A stretch of 58,754 nt of DNA from assembly GCA_017880805.1 (NCBI GenBank), contig JADGRP010000015.1:1-58754 (forward strand), given 5' to 3'. This stretch comes from Burkholderiales bacterium (GTDB taxonomy: Bacteria; Pseudomonadota; Gammaproteobacteria; Burkholderiales; Casimicrobiaceae). The notes under the pieces are model-generated. The model had not been told where the DNA came from. It saw nothing but the letters and a program-made list of their open reading frames with translations, and did not search any database. Positions 40,121 to 46,723 of the stretch are shown piece after piece. Position 1 is the stretch's first letter; each line of letters starts with the position of its first letter. The translations under genes and the position numbers were made by a program.

Positions 40121-41698
40121 ATGCTGCGCTTGTTCATGCTGACCCTTGCTTTGACGACGCTTGCTGCGGGAGCGCTCGACGCCAAGACGCTGCGCTGGGC
40201 CGGACGCGGCGACATGCAGACCACCGATCCGCACTCGCAGAACGAGAACCTGACCAACAACATCAACATCCTGATCTACGAGCCGCTGCTCCTGCGCAAC
40301 AAAACGCTCGGGCTGGAACCGGCGCTGGCCACGTCCTGGGAACAGCTCGGCCCGACGACCTGGCGCTTCAAGCTTCGTCCGGGCGTCAAGTTTCACGACG
40401 GCACGCCGTTTACCGCCGACGACGTCGTGTTTTCGTTCGAACGCGCACGTGCGGACACCTCGCAGCTCCGCGTGTACGCCAATGCATCCGGCATTCCCAA
40501 GAAAGTCGACGATCTGACGGTCGATTTCACGACCAATGGCCCGAACCCGATCGAGCTCGAGCACATCAACACCGTCAACATCATGAGCCGCGCGTGGTGC
40601 GAAAAAAATCGCGCGACCAAGCCGCAGAACTATACGCAAAAAGAAGACATGATCACCGCGCACCAGGCCAACGGCACCGGCCCGTATATCCTCAAGTCGC
40701 GCGAGCCGGACATCAAGACGGTGCTGACCAAGAATCCGAACTGGTGGGGCATCAAGGCAGGCTGGTTCGAGGGCAATGCCGACGAGGTGATCTACCTGCC
40801 CATCGTCTCCGATGCGACCCGGGTCGCGGCGCTGATCTCCGGAGAAGTCGACCTCATCAACGATCCGCCGCCGCAGGACGTGCCGCGATTGAAACAGGAT
40901 CCGAGCATCAAGGTGCTCGAGGGGTCCGAGAACCGCATCGTATTCATCGGCATGGATCAGAAACGCGACGAGCTCCTGTATTCGAGCGTCAAGGGCAAGA
41001 ACCCATTCAAGGACAAGCGCGTGCGGCAGGCGCTGTATCAGGCGATCGACATCGACGCCATCAAAACCAATACGATGCGCGGACTTTCGCAGCCGTCGGG
41101 CGCGCTGTTGCCGTCGCCGGCGCAGACGACCCCGGAGCTCGAGAAGCGGCTTGCCTTCGATCGTGTCAAAGCCAAGCAGCTCATGACCGAAGCGGGCTAT
41201 GGAGACGGGTTCGAAGTGACGCTCGACTGCCCCAACAATCGCTACGTCAACGACGAGAAAATCTGTCAGGCGCTGGCCGCGATGTGGGCCCAGATCGGCG
41301 TCAAGGTCAGTGTCAACGCGATGCCGCGCGCGAACTATTTTCCCAAGCTGGAGCAAACCGATACCAGCATGTACATGCTCGGCTGGGGCGGCGGCACGAC
41401 CGACGGCATCTTCATCCTCCAGCCCGTGCTGTCGACCTACAACGGCAAGGGAGACGGCGACTACAACTACGGCCGCTACACGAATCCGAAGCTCGACGAG
41501 CTGGTCGCGAAAATCAAGGTCGACATGAATCCGGACGCCAGGCTTAAGGAGATTCGCGACGCGCTGGCGGCGCACAACGCCGAGATCAACCATCTTCCCC
41601 TGCACCGGCAGGTCATTCCCTGGGCGGCGCGCAGCAATGTCATCGCGGTACACCGCGCCGACAATCAGGTCATGCCGTATTGGATAAAGGTGCAGTAG
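40121..41698 (+). CDS. ABC transporter substrate-binding protein, family 5 (peptide/opine/nickel type)
   Basis: TLRWAGRGDMQTTDPHSQNENLTNNINILIYEPLL, FKLRPGVKFHDGTPFTADDVVFSFERA. Confidence 0.93.
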   Translation: MLRLFMLTLALTTLAAGALDAKTLRWAGRGDMQTTDPHSQNENLTNNINILIYEPLLLRNKTLGLEPALATSWEQLGPTTWRFKLRPGVKFHDGTPFTADDVVFSFERARADTSQLRVYANASGIPKKVDDLTVDFTTNGPNPIELEHINTVNIMSRAWCEKNRATKPQNYTQKEDMITAHQANGTGPYILKSREPDIKTVLTKNPNWWGIKAGWFEGNADEVIYLPIVSDATRVAALISGEVDLINDPPPQDVPRLKQDPSIKVLEGSENRIVFIGMDQKRDELLYSSVKGKNPFKDKRVRQALYQAIDIDAIKTNTMRGLSQPSGALLPSPAQTTPELEKRLAFDRVKAKQLMTEAGYGDGFEVTLDCPNNRYVNDEKICQALAAMWAQIGVKVSVNAMPRANYFPKLEQTDTSMYMLGWGGGTTDGIFILQPVLSTYNGKGDGDYNYGRYTNPKLDELVAKIKVDMNPDARLKEIRDALAAHNAEINHLPLHRQVIPWAARSNVIAVHRADNQVMPYWIKVQ

Positions 41699-41738: not shown

Positions 41739-44700
41739 TCATTCGGCTGCGGCCAGCGCCGCGGTTTTCGCGCCGGGACGCAGCAGATACCGCGTTGCGG
41801 CCCAGCCAAGCGCAAACGCGGTGGCGGTGGCAATAAGCGCCAGCGTCGCCGCCTGCGCGGTGTGTTTTTGCGCCGCATCGCCGACGAAACCGACGACGAG
41901 CTGAACCGCGATCAATGCCGGCGCGATGCGAAGATCGAAGCGAAGGACAGTCGCGTAAATCAGCGTCGCCAGCGCCCCGCCCACGACGCCCGCGGTGATG
42001 ATGTCGGTCCATTGATCGGCGTTGGCCGCGGCCACAGCCGCTTGAGCGAGCACCAGCACGACGACACCGAGCGCGCGCCGCCGGGTCCAGCCCGCGGTCA
42101 GGCGGTCGATCCAGTAAAGCATGATCACCGTGACCGTCATCACCATCAGACCCGAGCTCACGGTTCCGGAGATGCGTCCGAGCCAGGGCACCCACAGCTC
42201 CTCGACCTTGTACGACGGCCAGGTCGGAGCCATGTCGGGCGAAAGACGGCCCAGGAGGCCGTCGACACCCAGCACGAACAAGGCGGCTCCTGCCCCGCGA
42301 ATCCAAAGCGTCTTTTGCGTCAGTCCGGGCTCGACGTGCGCGCGCGCCGCGAATGATGCAACTCCGGCAAGGAGACCGCAGAGCAGCGCGGACAGCACCG
42401 TCGTCAGCAGCGTACCCGCCAGATACACGCTCACCTGCGTCGTCACCGGTTCGGTGGTCGACAGCCGCATGCCAAGCAGCGGCCACTGGTTGGCGGTATT
42501 GACCGCCGCCGCCAATAGCATGAGCGTGGCCGCGATCCAGAACGCGCGCCGGTCGAAACGCCCGCGGCTCCAGGCGACGATGGACGCGATCAACGCGGCA
42601 ATGACGACGACGATGATCGCCATCGCGACCATGTTCTTGGCAACCGCGAGTCGTCCCGAGCGATCCGTTTCAGCACGTTGCCACGTTTCGGGAACGAAGA
42701 CATAGCGGCCCGAGCTCACGACTTCGTCGCCGGCGATATCGACACCGACCCGCGCCTCTCCGCCTTCGCCTGCGTCGACGCGCGGATCGGAAAAGGTGAT
42801 TTTCCAGTCGTTGCGCGCCGGCTGCGGATCATCCTTCACCGAGACTTCGCGCAGTGCCTCCGGATCGAGCCCGAAGCGTTGATTGATTTCTTTCCGGGCG
42901 ATGATCCGTGCCTCATCGCGCGACAACTTCGCTCCCGACTGTCGCTCCGGCAACTGATGTCGCACCTGCCTCACCGCGCCGTCTGCCGAGACCGTGACGC
43001 GCCATTCCTCGGATCGATCGACAACGTCTCCGCCTTCGAAGCGCGCGTAGCGCACCTCCCACAACGGCGGCGCAAGCCAGCTCCCGATCAAATGCGCGTA
43101 CGCGTCGTGCCCGCCTTCGCGCCACACGAACTTGTGCCAGAGCCACGTGCCGTCTTCCGACGCGAGCCGCGTGGCGGCCGCCTGTTTCCATTCGGGTCCA
43201 AGCGTGATCCCGCGATTCTTGAGTGCGGCATCGGCGGCCGCTTCGGCCTTGGCGCGGTCGATTTGCAGCGGCGGCGCGTCGCTGTGGAAGTCACCACCGA
43301 ACGCTATCGCCAACAATCCTGCAACGCCAAGGAGGGGCAGTGCGCGTTGAACCAGAGTGGTCCACCGCCCTGCCTCGGCGCGGACACGTGCCGCGACGGC
43401 GCCGGCCACGGCCGCACCGCTGCGCCATGCTCCGTTGCGCAATAGCGCCGGGAGATCGAGCCACCGGCCAGCGCGCGCTCGGTGCAAAACGACAATCGCC
43501 AGGGGCACCAGTCCCGCGGCGAGAACAAGCGCCTGATTCAATCCACTGCCGGAGCCATCGATGAGGAACACCGGTATAGACATCAGGACAAGATCGAAAA
43601 CGGCATGAAGGATCACTGTGGTCAGCAAACCGAAGCGCAAGAAGATGAGTCCCCAGATGAATGCCGGAATCACCAACTCGACCAGTCGCGAGTACGCCGG
43701 AAAGCCAGGGTAGTTCGCGTGTGCGGCGCCGAAGATGACGGCCTGCAGCACGAGCGCCAGGCCGATCAGCAGGCCGCGATGACCAAAACGCTTGCCAAGC
43801 AGCGCGGCGATCGACAAGGGCACCGCGCGAAAAAGACACTCCTCCATGAATCCCGCCTGCAGCGCCATGCCTATGGGCGAGAGCGCGGGCAACGCGCTGC
43901 CGAGGATGTTGGGATCGGTAAGCGACTCCGAAGGTTGCCACCATCCGAAGTAGCGGTTGGTCACGAAATAGAATGCCGCGATCAGCGCCAGCTCGATCGG
44001 AACAAAGAGGTACCCGCCCAGGGTGCGGCCAAGGATAGCTGGCGTCGGCGCGGCTGCGCGTGACCAGACGCGCCAAAGCTGTGGATGGTCCGGGAATGCC
44101 CGGCGCGACAGCCCTTCCGCGGCCATGAACACCAGCGCCAGTCCAAGCGAGCCCACCAGAAACACCAGCAGCGCACGGCCGCCCTGTGTTCCCCAGAAGA
44201 CCCAGACCGGCTGCGCTGTATCGTACGAGAACCACGCCTGGGGTGCGCTGGCGAGCATCGCCAACGCATTGATGCCGGCGACGATGGCGCCGGCGGCGAG
44301 CGCGCGCTTCCATAGCAACGCGCGCCGGCGCAGCAGCCACAAGGTGCCAAGGATGCAACCACCGATTCCGTACAGCGCGGCAGTGGCTAGCGATGCCACT
44401 TTGGCGATCGTCTCGTTGGCGGAGCGCATTTCCTGGAAACGAAGCGTGAACGCTTCCGGAACGAATACGTAGTGCACGACTTCGCTCAGACGGTCGCCGG
44501 CAACGCCAAGCCGCAGCCGGAACCGGCCGTCGCCGAGCGTTTCGTGCTCGCGTTCGTAGACGAATGCGTGATCGACGCGGCCACCGGACCGGCGCACGTC
44601 TGACTGCTCGATCAGCTTGTAGGGCGCGAAATCGATCGCCCAGTCTTCGCGGGCGCGGGCCTCGGCGATCGCGCGCGCCGCGCTCGCGTCGAGCGCCGCG

Positions 44701-45122
44701 CCGCGCTCCGCTTCGGGCACCTTCAATTGAAATCCATACGAAGAGCCGTCGGGCCGGAAGCGCACGCGCGCCTCGGCGGTCTCGTTCGGCTTGAACAAGC
44801 GCACTTCCCACCAATACGGCGCGTAGACGTCTCCCGCCAGCAGCTCGGCAAACTTGGGCTTGCCGCCCGCATCGAGCTCGACAAAGTTCTGCGTCGCACC
44901 GTCGTGGGTGAACAGCGCCGCGCGCCGTGCATCCGCAGGCGCAAGATCGAGCTTGCCGGCAAGCGCGCCGGCGCGATCGAGCGCGTCATCGCGCGTCATC
45001 TTGACGTCGAGCTTGATCAGAGGCAGCGCCTGCGGAAAATAGCGCCACGCAAATACCGCCGAGCACGCGGAGATCACGGCGAACGCGATCCAGAATGCGG
45101 GCTTGCGTGTGATTGCTGTCAT
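41739..45122 (-). CDS. Very large CPBP/CAAX-type intramembrane protease with apparent internal duplication
   Basis: CPBP motifs GFMEECLFRAVP, IFGAAHANYPGFP, TTVILHAVFDL in the N-terminal half; second half repeats the same layout without them. Confidence 0.85.
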   Translation of the reverse strand: MTAITRKPAFWIAFAVISACSAVFAWRYFPQALPLIKLDVKMTRDDALDRAGALAGKLDLAPADARRAALFTHDGATQNFVELDAGGKPKFAELLAGDVYAPYWWEVRLFKPNETAEARVRFRPDGSSYGFQLKVPEAERGAALDASAARAIAEARAREDWAIDFAPYKLIEQSDVRRSGGRVDHAFVYEREHETLGDGRFRLRLGVAGDRLSEVVHYVFVPEAFTLRFQEMRSANETIAKVASLATAALYGIGGCILGTLWLLRRRALLWKRALAAGAIVAGINALAMLASAPQAWFSYDTAQPVWVFWGTQGGRALLVFLVGSLGLALVFMAAEGLSRRAFPDHPQLWRVWSRAAAPTPAILGRTLGGYLFVPIELALIAAFYFVTNRYFGWWQPSESLTDPNILGSALPALSPIGMALQAGFMEECLFRAVPLSIAALLGKRFGHRGLLIGLALVLQAVIFGAAHANYPGFPAYSRLVELVIPAFIWGLIFLRFGLLTTVILHAVFDLVLMSIPVFLIDGSGSGLNQALVLAAGLVPLAIVVLHRARAGRWLDLPALLRNGAWRSGAAVAGAVAARVRAEAGRWTTLVQRALPLLGVAGLLAIAFGGDFHSDAPPLQIDRAKAEAAADAALKNRGITLGPEWKQAAATRLASEDGTWLWHKFVWREGGHDAYAHLIGSWLAPPLWEVRYARFEGGDVVDRSEEWRVTVSADGAVRQVRHQLPERQSGAKLSRDEARIIARKEINQRFGLDPEALREVSVKDDPQPARNDWKITFSDPRVDAGEGGEARVGVDIAGDEVVSSGRYVFVPETWQRAETDRSGRLAVAKNMVAMAIIVVVIAALIASIVAWSRGRFDRRAFWIAATLMLLAAAVNTANQWPLLGMRLSTTEPVTTQVSVYLAGTLLTTVLSALLCGLLAGVASFAARAHVEPGLTQKTLWIRGAGAALFVLGVDGLLGRLSPDMAPTWPSYKVEELWVPWLGRISGTVSSGLMVMTVTVIMLYWIDRLTAGWTRRRALGVVVLVLAQAAVAAANADQWTDIITAGVVGGALATLIYATVLRFDLRIAPALIAVQLVVGFVGDAAQKHTAQAATLALIATATAFALGWAATRYLLRPGAKTAALAAAE

Positions 45123-45262: not shown

Positions 45263-45331
45263 CCTCAGCTATCTCAGTTGGCTCAGTTGCCTCAGTTAAC
45301 TGAGGTGCCCTCAGTTGCGTCAGGTACCTCA
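45263..45331. repeat. Degenerate CTCAGTTGC tandem repeats overlapping the pntB stop codon
   Basis: TATCTCAGTTGGCTCAGTTGCCTCAGTTAACTGAGGTGCCCTCAGTTGCGTCAGGTACCTCAGTC; includes 16-bp palindrome CCTCAGTTAACTGAGG (45290-45305). Confidence 0.78.
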
Positions 45332-46723
45332 GTCAACCGCCTTGACCAGATCCTCGACGACCTTTTTGGCGTCGCCGAACACCATCATCGTCTTGTCCAT
45401 GTAGAACAGCGGATTGTCGAGACCGGCATACCCGGACGCCATCGAGCGCTTGTTGACGATGACCGATTTCGCCTTGTAGGCCTCGATGATCGGCATGCCG
45501 TAGATCGGACTGCCCTTCTGTTCGGCGAGCGGATTGACGACGTCGTTGGCGCCGAGGATCAGCGCAACATCGGCTTGTGCGAACTCGCTGTTGATGTCTT
45601 CCATTTCGAACACCTGGTCGTAGGGGACCTCGGCCTCGGCCAGGAGCACGTTCATATGTCCAGGCATCCGGCCGGCGACCGGATGGATCGCATACTTGAC
45701 GGTCACCCCTTTGGCAGTCAGCTTCGCCGCGAGTTCCTTCACCGCATGTTGCGCGCGCGCCACCGCGAGGCCGTAGCCGGGCACGATGATTACGGTGTCC
45801 GCGTTGGACAGTAGAAAGGCCGCATCGTCAGCGCTGCCGGTCTTGACCGGCTTCTTCTCCCCGCCGGCGGCGGCCTCGCTAATCTCGCCGCCAAAGCCGC
45901 CCAGAATCACACTGAAGAACGAGCGGTTCATCGCCTTGCACATGATGTACGAAAGAATCGCGCCAGAAGAGCCGACCAGCGACCCGGCAATGATCAGCAT
46001 CGGGTTGTCGAGCGAGAAGCCGATGCCCGCCGCGGCCCACCCCGAGTAGCTGTTCAACATTGAGATGACAACCGGCATGTCGGCGCCGCCGATGGGAATG
46101 ATGAGCAGGAAACCGAGCAGGAACGCGAGCGTGGTCATGATGATGAACGGCATCCACTGCGCGGAAGGCGGCGACACGCAGAACCAGATGCCGAAACCGA
46201 TCATCGCGATGCCGATCGCGAGATTCACGAAATGCTGGCCAGCGAATGTGACCGGCGCGCTGCGGATTCGACCTGAGAGCTTGCCGAACGCGATCACCGA
46301 GCCGGAGAACGTGATCGCGCCGATGAAGGTGCCGATGAATAGCTCAAGCTTGTGTCCGAACGTGATCGGCACGTCCAATCCCATCGCAGCAGGATTGTTG
46401 ACCGCGGCGATCGCGATGAACACCGCGGCGAGGCCCACCAGCGAGTGCATCGCCGCCACCAGTTCGGGCATCTGTGTCATCTGCACCCGGCGCGCAACGA
46501 TCGCGCCTATCGTCCCGCCTACCGCCATGCCGCCAAGAATGGGCAGCACGTTCTTGCTGTGTGAATAGACCAGCGCCAGCGTGACCAGCAGGGCGATCGT
46601 CATGCCGACCATGCCGTAGAGGTTGCCCCGGCGCGCGGTGTGCGGGCCTGACAGGCCCTTGAGCGCGAGGATGAAACTCACCGCGGCGACGAGATACCAG
46701 AGTGCGAGTTGATTGGCGCTCAT
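45329..46723 (-). CDS. pntB: NAD(P) transhydrogenase subunit beta
   Basis: GGADMPVVISMLNSYSGWAAAGIGFSLDN, IVPGYGLAVARAQHAVKELAAKL, HPVAGRMPGHMNVLLAEAEVPYDQVFEMEDIN. Confidence 0.98.
   Translation of the reverse strand: MSANQLALWYLVAAVSFILALKGLSGPHTARRGNLYGMVGMTIALLVTLALVYSHSKNVLPILGGMAVGGTIGAIVARRVQMTQMPELVAAMHSLVGLAAVFIAIAAVNNPAAMGLDVPITFGHKLELFIGTFIGAITFSGSVIAFGKLSGRIRSAPVTFAGQHFVNLAIGIAMIGFGIWFCVSPPSAQWMPFIIMTTLAFLLGFLLIIPIGGADMPVVISMLNSYSGWAAAGIGFSLDNPMLIIAGSLVGSSGAILSYIMCKAMNRSFFSVILGGFGGEISEAAAGGEKKPVKTGSADDAAFLLSNADTVIIVPGYGLAVARAQHAVKELAAKLTAKGVTVKYAIHPVAGRMPGHMNVLLAEAEVPYDQVFEMEDINSEFAQADVALILGANDVVNPLAEQKGSPIYGMPIIEAYKAKSVIVNKRSMASGYAGLDNPLFYMDKTMMVFGDAKKVVEDLVKAVD

Follow-up and report, generated by a model that had tools for sequence, protein, structure and literature searches.

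How intramembrane proteases are gated is still debated, and most work on pseudoproteases deals with stand-alone proteins. In the window analyzed here, a stretch of 58,754 nt from a Burkholderiales bacterium of the family Casimicrobiaceae (contig JADGRP010000015.1), a single uninterrupted open reading frame of 1127 amino acids appears to carry an intramembrane protease of the CPBP type and a second, degenerate copy of it. The locus raises the question whether the two halves of this protein are homologous, whether the first is a working protease and the second a dead one, and why a dead copy should be kept in the same chain.

Organization of the open reading frame

Each half of the protein is a module of ~550 aa which consists of one transmembrane (TM) helix, a two-part periplasmic domain, four further TM helices and a core of the CPBP/Rce1 type (Table 1). 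The N-terminal half reaches to about position 43470 and the C-terminal half begins at about 43367, on either side of a linker. With some exceptions, the loop charges fit a topology in which the termini and the linker lie in the cytoplasm and the ectodomains in the periplasm.

Scans of the whole protein against Pfam and NCBIfam gave no match, and the halves needed to be scanned separately. Under these conditions a single Pfam domain scored above its cut-off, the Rce1-like domain PF02517 in the N half (39.7 bits compared with a curated cut-off of 22.4; 44.6 bits in the genome scan). PF02517 was found neither in the C half of the window protein nor in the list of the 25 families matched most often by 31 C halves. 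A weak match of the C half to 7TMR-DISM (E=0.011, below the cut-off) was rejected as an effect of the TM composition. On the same strand the open reading frame follows a gene at 45329-46723 which we take, from its sequence alone, to be pntB, and it runs tail to tail with a gene for a peptide-binding protein (40121-41698).

Table 1. Features of the two-module protein and their positions in the window
Feature	Position	Strand	Basis
Whole open reading frame, two-module CPBP protease-pseudoprotease (predicted), 1127 aa	41739-45122	-	single uninterrupted frame; AlphaFold mean pLDDT 90.3, pTM 0.86
N half, TM1, residues 8-32, N-terminus cytoplasmic	45027-45101	-	AlphaFold helix 8-32; loop charge distribution
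N half, periplasmic domain, residues 33-222, two alpha+beta subdomains, WWEVR and YVFVPE motifs	44457-45026	-	AlphaFold secondary structure; Pfam DUF4901 matched here in relatives
N half, TM2-TM5 bundle, residues 223-392	43947-44456	-	AlphaFold, loop charges; duplicated, hhalign E=7e-8 alone
N half, active-looking CPBP/Rce1 core, residues 393-551, TM6-TM10	43470-43946	-	PF02517 at residues 414-512
Predicted catalytic motif EECLFR (E427, E428, R432)	43827-43844	-	invariant, 73/73 N halves
Predicted catalytic motif FGAAH (FxxxH, H468)	43719-43733	-	H468 invariant, 73/73 N halves
Predicted catalytic motif HAVFD (HxxxD, H506, D510)	43593-43607	-	invariant, 73/73 N halves
Cytoplasmic linker between the halves, residues 552-585, poorly conserved	43368-43469	-	pLDDT about 52 at residues 571-580; dN highest in all pairs
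C half, TM11, residues 586-609, counterpart of TM1	43296-43367	-	AlphaFold (full chain; C half alone)
C half, second periplasmic domain, residues 610-811, PLWEVR and RYVFVPE motifs	42690-43295	-	BLASTP vs first ectodomain E=1e-11; AlphaFold
C half, TM12-TM15 bundle, residues 812-958	42249-42689	-	AlphaFold; N878, P892, Q896 invariant in 31 aligned family-1 sequences
C half, degenerate CPBP core, residues 959-1114, TM16-TM20	41781-42248	-	V994/M995/V999 at EExxxR, N1034 at the first His, I1071/L1075 at HxxxD; alignments, AlphaFold

The two halves are homologous

A BLASTP comparison of the N half with the C half gave 28% identity over 163 aa (E=1e-11), spanning the WEVR and YVFVPE segments. The profile-profile match between the halves became stronger as sequences were added, from E=9e-23 with 20 close relatives to 1.6e-28 with a wider set and to 1.3e-55 with 72 sequences of each half, where it covers 28-541 of the N half and 49-544 of the C half. 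The weakest part of the duplication is the CPBP core. With the wide set the profiles of the core alone matched with E=4.2e-6 and a score of 40.3, whereas the reversed core scored 22.0 and none of 60 column shuffles more than 20.1; with a smaller set of relatives the core-only match was not significant. Rotated alignments proved uninformative as an hhalign control because they retained most of the true alignment.

The AlphaFold model of the full chain, calculated with 31 aligned sequences, contains 10+10 membrane helices, and the C half alone was predicted with a pLDDT of 92.0 and a pTM of 0.88. In both halves the secondary-structure elements follow each other in the same order, core helices included. 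Given as N half/C half, the first TM helix and the first part of the ectodomain pair as helices 8-32/586-609 and 44-58/623-636, strand 66-73/645-652 and helix 75-96/660-678; the ectodomain continues with strands 103-110/687-694, 117-122/706-711 and 128-134/717-723, helix 146-161/735-750 and four strands within 168-220/758-809. The TM bundle is made up of helices 223-265/812-852, 272-291/858-878, 306-342/893-928 and 361-392/936-958, and the core of helices 414-446/979-1008, 449-467/1016-1034, 478-497/1038-1060, 499-514/1064-1086 and 526-551/1089-1114. Two short helices of the N half (398-401 and 404-408) have no counterpart in the C half.

Foldseek searches of the PDB with both AlphaFold models, including the full-length model with its intact N half, found no significant match, and sequence searches of the PDB returned chance matches only or none. 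Because of the Foldseek result we do not rely on superposition for a CPBP fold in the C half and draw instead on profile similarity and helix order; core homology and helix order agree with the N half, and a CPBP fold is supported as the predicted structure of this region. The two halves are homologous over their whole length, and the tandem internal duplication which the initial annotation had described for this open reading frame is confirmed by BLASTP, by the profile-profile match and by the order of the AlphaFold elements.

Catalytic residues are kept in the N half and lost in the C half

CPBP/Rce1 proteases are defined by the motifs EExxxR, FxxxH and HxxxN/D in separate TM helices (PMC11980579, PMC6588880, PMC12067869). 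In the N half EExxxR, the His and HxxxD each lie on a TM helix of their own, at the sites which had been read as EECLFR, AAHANYP and LHAVFD, namely E427-E428-x3-R432, F464-x3-H468 and H506-x3-D510. By motif, Glu427 and His468 correspond to Glu140 and His173 of MmRce1 (PMC12067869). For the C half it had been claimed that the catalytic Glu and His are missing. This is correct, as the aligned residues differ (Table 1), but the segment VTVIML, which had been placed opposite the EExxxR motif, was a few residues out of register.

We surveyed 73 two-module proteins from Betaproteobacteria, Acidobacteriota, Calditrichota, Dependentiae and one Kiritimatiellae MAG. One of these proteins (L039) has a truncated N half, which still covers the catalytic residues. 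The catalytic set is intact in all 73 N halves and lost in the aligned C halves: none of the 73 C halves has a Glu at either of the two Glu sites, the Arg, second His and Asp are likewise gone from all of them, and four have a His at the first His column. When EExxxR was sought without an alignment, beyond residue 350, it turned up in 72 of the 73 N halves and in two C halves (L139 and L140); in these two it sits in a loop before the core, and we rejected it as a chance occurrence.

Judged from its motifs, the N half probably works as a glutamic endopeptidase of the CPBP/Rce1 type. It could also be another membrane enzyme or a transporter-like protein that uses the CPBP scaffold and has the C half as its structural partner, and CPBP-fold proteins without protease function do exist (LnsB, PMC7387801; SpdC, PMC5854430). 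In LnsB and SpdC, however, the catalytic set is missing. The N half, by contrast, retains EExxxR, HxxxD and the His of FxxxH in 73 of 73 proteins from several phyla, which makes a function other than proteolysis unlikely.

The C half is under selection

Purifying selection acts on both halves. In the two pairs with unsaturated dS (about 0.5), NG86 estimates of dN/dS were about 0.2 and 0.1 for the N core, 0.22 and 0.16 for the C core, and 0.47-0.49 for the linker. From the values of the C core we conclude that the C half is constrained and not decaying. The C core does evolve faster than the N core, as one would expect if the C half were a decaying relic of the duplication. Yet every intact two-module gene, across several phyla, retains the C half with an open frame and a dN/dS far below 1, and even Dependentiae genomes of ~1 Mb have kept it. 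A relic is scarcely credible in view of this conservation, which has already essentially refuted it.

Invariant columns of the C half concentrate in the ectodomain and around N878-P892-Q896. It is conceivable that these three residues and the invariant residues of the ectodomain form a new site, and that the C half has a new chemistry of its own. The C core, however, where a membrane active site would be expected, shows the lowest conservation of all parts, with a mean identity of about 0.50 among close relatives, and of its Glu, Asp, His and Arg columns just two exceed 50%, an Arg and an Asp of one loop, at the N-half positions 496 and 498. A new active site in the C half is in our view highly improbable.

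Distribution and origin

The collection of relatives comprised 24 of 101 relatives and 27 of 65 genomes of the window's family, together with 35 loci from public genomes. The N-half profile matched in 38 of 102 genomes of Dependentiae, in 39 of 297 genomes of Acidobacteriota (some of the proteins being one-module or remote) and in 6 of 41 genomes of Calditrichota (two of them one-module). A two-module protein is also encoded in the Kiritimatiellae MAG L046. In a sample of 399 genomes of the window's phylum the window's own genome was the sole match. Within the Betaproteobacteria the two-module protein looks largely confined to one family, the Casimicrobiaceae, with one further carrier, a MAG labelled Rhodocyclaceae (L041). 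In a MAG labelled Bordetella parapertussis (L029) the match coordinates are equal to those in a genome of the window's family (G010), and the species label looks wrong.

The patchy distribution suggests horizontal transfer. Wherever the gene is intact both modules lie in one open reading frame, and a free-standing C half was not found among the genomes searched with the N-half profile. An apparent split gene at two places of one contig (L170/L171) was rejected as a scaffolding error, as runs of unknown bases lie at both breakpoints. The two-module arrangement is kept in at least five bacterial phyla, and we therefore suggest that the dead copy has a job, for example in controlling or supporting the live one. 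Its retention in the reduced genomes of Dependentiae likewise suggests an important function. In this phylum (L177-L196) about a third of the sampled genomes, mostly of 0.7-1.7 Mb, carry the two-module gene.

A conserved operon was looked for across the phyla and not found. The neighbours pntB and hrpA are common to close relatives only, and a RadA/thymidine kinase neighbourhood is common to Dependentiae only. Since the neighbours are not conserved across phyla, the gene context points to no pathway.

A tree of the ectodomain and the TM bundle (53 rows, 321 columns) splits into four groups, which are the N and C halves of family 1 and the N and C halves of family 2. All C halves (C1+C2) fall on one side of a branch with a weak support of 64/76, and two independent duplications were not rejected (AU p=0.31 and 0.20). 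One old duplication would be the simpler, if not proven, reading. The simplest origin would be a homodimer of one-module proteases which was fused by duplication and lost one of its sites afterwards.

One-module relatives and the ectodomain

Some proteins of Acidobacteriota have a single module and intact motifs; they are about 550-600 aa long (L159-L165; L166 is a 683-aa open frame), and no second module was found near their genes. Two of the genes, those of L159 and L160, lie directly behind genes for an ABC ATPase and an ABC-2 permease (regions L159:2815-6199 and L160:2314-5696). The NCBIfam family NF041647, named ABC permease/CPBP protease, weakly matches another relative (L147).

Two proteins of Calditrichota, L167 (2756-5200, + strand) and L168 (264-2699, - strand), are 812-815 aa long and consist of one module and a C-terminal SpoIIE PP2C phosphatase (E about 1e-50). 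Their core still passes PF02517, but its EE site reads F/C-E, and Y and Q/T stand in place of the first and the second His. These SpoIIE-type phosphatases share with the window protein the ectodomain and a CPBP-like membrane module with a degenerate site, but they have one module only, and a cytoplasmic phosphatase domain replaces the second. The module can therefore serve without catalysis, and going by these two sequences a pseudoprotease module appears to have been reused as a membrane sensor.

The ectodomain matches DUF4901 (PF16244) above the curated cut-off of 27 in two divergent members from Acidobacteriota, with 44.4 bits in L152 and 28.8 bits in L145. Matches were weaker in C halves, YpeB-PepSY was matched weakly in the ectodomain of divergent members, and the Pfam scan gave no DUF4901 match in the window protein itself. 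By these matches in relatives the ectodomain resembles the repeated domain of YcdB/YcdC (PF16244, DUF4901) and the PepSY domain of YpeB; the difference from YcdB/YcdC is that here it precedes a CPBP membrane core.

The protein might on this basis be mainly a signal transducer, with ectodomains that bind a ligand, a dead half that transmits and proteolysis by the N half as the output. Both the likeness of the ectodomains to DUF4901/YpeB-PepSY models and the degenerate one-module version that feeds a cytoplasmic SpoIIE phosphatase in Calditrichota would fit such a role. The two-module proteins examined, however, contain no output domain and have no conserved regulatory neighbour, and we hold signal transduction as the main role to be distinctly unlikely.

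Comparison with known systems and a possible mechanism

The reading which we consider probable is that of a two-module intramembrane protease, in which the N half is a working CPBP protease and the C half an ancient, dead full-length copy kept as its partner. The fused protease-pseudoprotease pair proposed in the initial annotation finds support in the sequence, in the predicted structure and in the evolution of the protein.

In its motifs and its PF02517 score the N half is like the CPBP/Rce1 glutamic proteases MmRce1, MroQ and the myxosortase MrtX (PF02517). MmRce1 has 8 TM helices and MrtX 7 in 239 aa, whereas the window protein combines two modules of 10 TM helices each with two large periplasmic domains, and one of its cores is dead. 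The C half is comparable to SpdC/LyrA, LnsB and APH-1 of gamma-secretase, proteins with a CPBP fold and absent or poorly conserved catalytic residues which regulate another enzyme or serve it as a chaperone or scaffold (PMC5854430, PMC7387801, PMC6588880). SpdC interacts with itself and binds histidine kinases, with WalK as a partner, through its TM helices (PMC5854430), and LnsB takes part in lipoprotein N-acylation and has been discussed alongside APH-1 (PMC7387801). These are separate polypeptides with other partners, whereas the dead copy in the window is fused to its own active paralogue. The iRhom rhomboid pseudoproteases, too, are dead copies of intramembrane proteases that regulate the active pathway (PMC3149277, PMC6451368); they differ in belonging to the rhomboid and not the CPBP family and in being separate proteins, unfused to the active enzyme. 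CPBP proteases and dead CPBP-fold proteins are already known, and one chain fusing both is apparently new: Pfam and NCBIfam hold no model for it, and no description was found in the open-access literature searched, which mostly excludes subscription papers and leaves room for an earlier mention.

In a possible mechanism each module would consist of one TM helix, a periplasmic sensor or binding domain of two subdomains and a TM bundle carrying the CPBP fold. The first catalytic His (H468) would be situated where the membrane meets the periplasm. The modules may pack together as an intramolecular pseudo-dimer, in which the C half as the partner would keep the second ectodomain in place, and the two ectodomains could cover the one active site or gate the access to it. 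The dead CPBP fold might stabilize the live one, present substrate to it or relay a signal. Rather tentatively, this may be an ancient, horizontally spread family in which the live half cannot do without the dead CPBP half as its built-in scaffold or gate, and the protein a one-polypeptide analogue of APH-1/presenilin or iRhom/rhomboid. A sensing or gating role of the C half and the ectodomains, as first suggested for this protein, is a reasonable inference, backed indirectly by the degenerate module on the SpoIIE phosphatase of Calditrichota, by the likeness of the ectodomain to the YcdB/YcdC and YpeB-PepSY models and by the roles of other dead CPBP-fold proteins.

The single chain fixes active and dead copies at 1:1, and the role of the dead copy can be tested by truncation and point mutation; the active one-module relatives and the degenerate relatives wired to a phosphatase add to this testability. 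At the sequence level, the active module, the duplicated active/dead pair and the dead module with a phosphatase output outline a path from protease to sensor.

The window's genome contains one other PF02517 gene (contig C239, - strand). It encodes an exosortase E/protease fusion of the VPEID-CTERM system (TIGR04162, 249.7 bits) and therefore implies a protein-sorting system in this organism.
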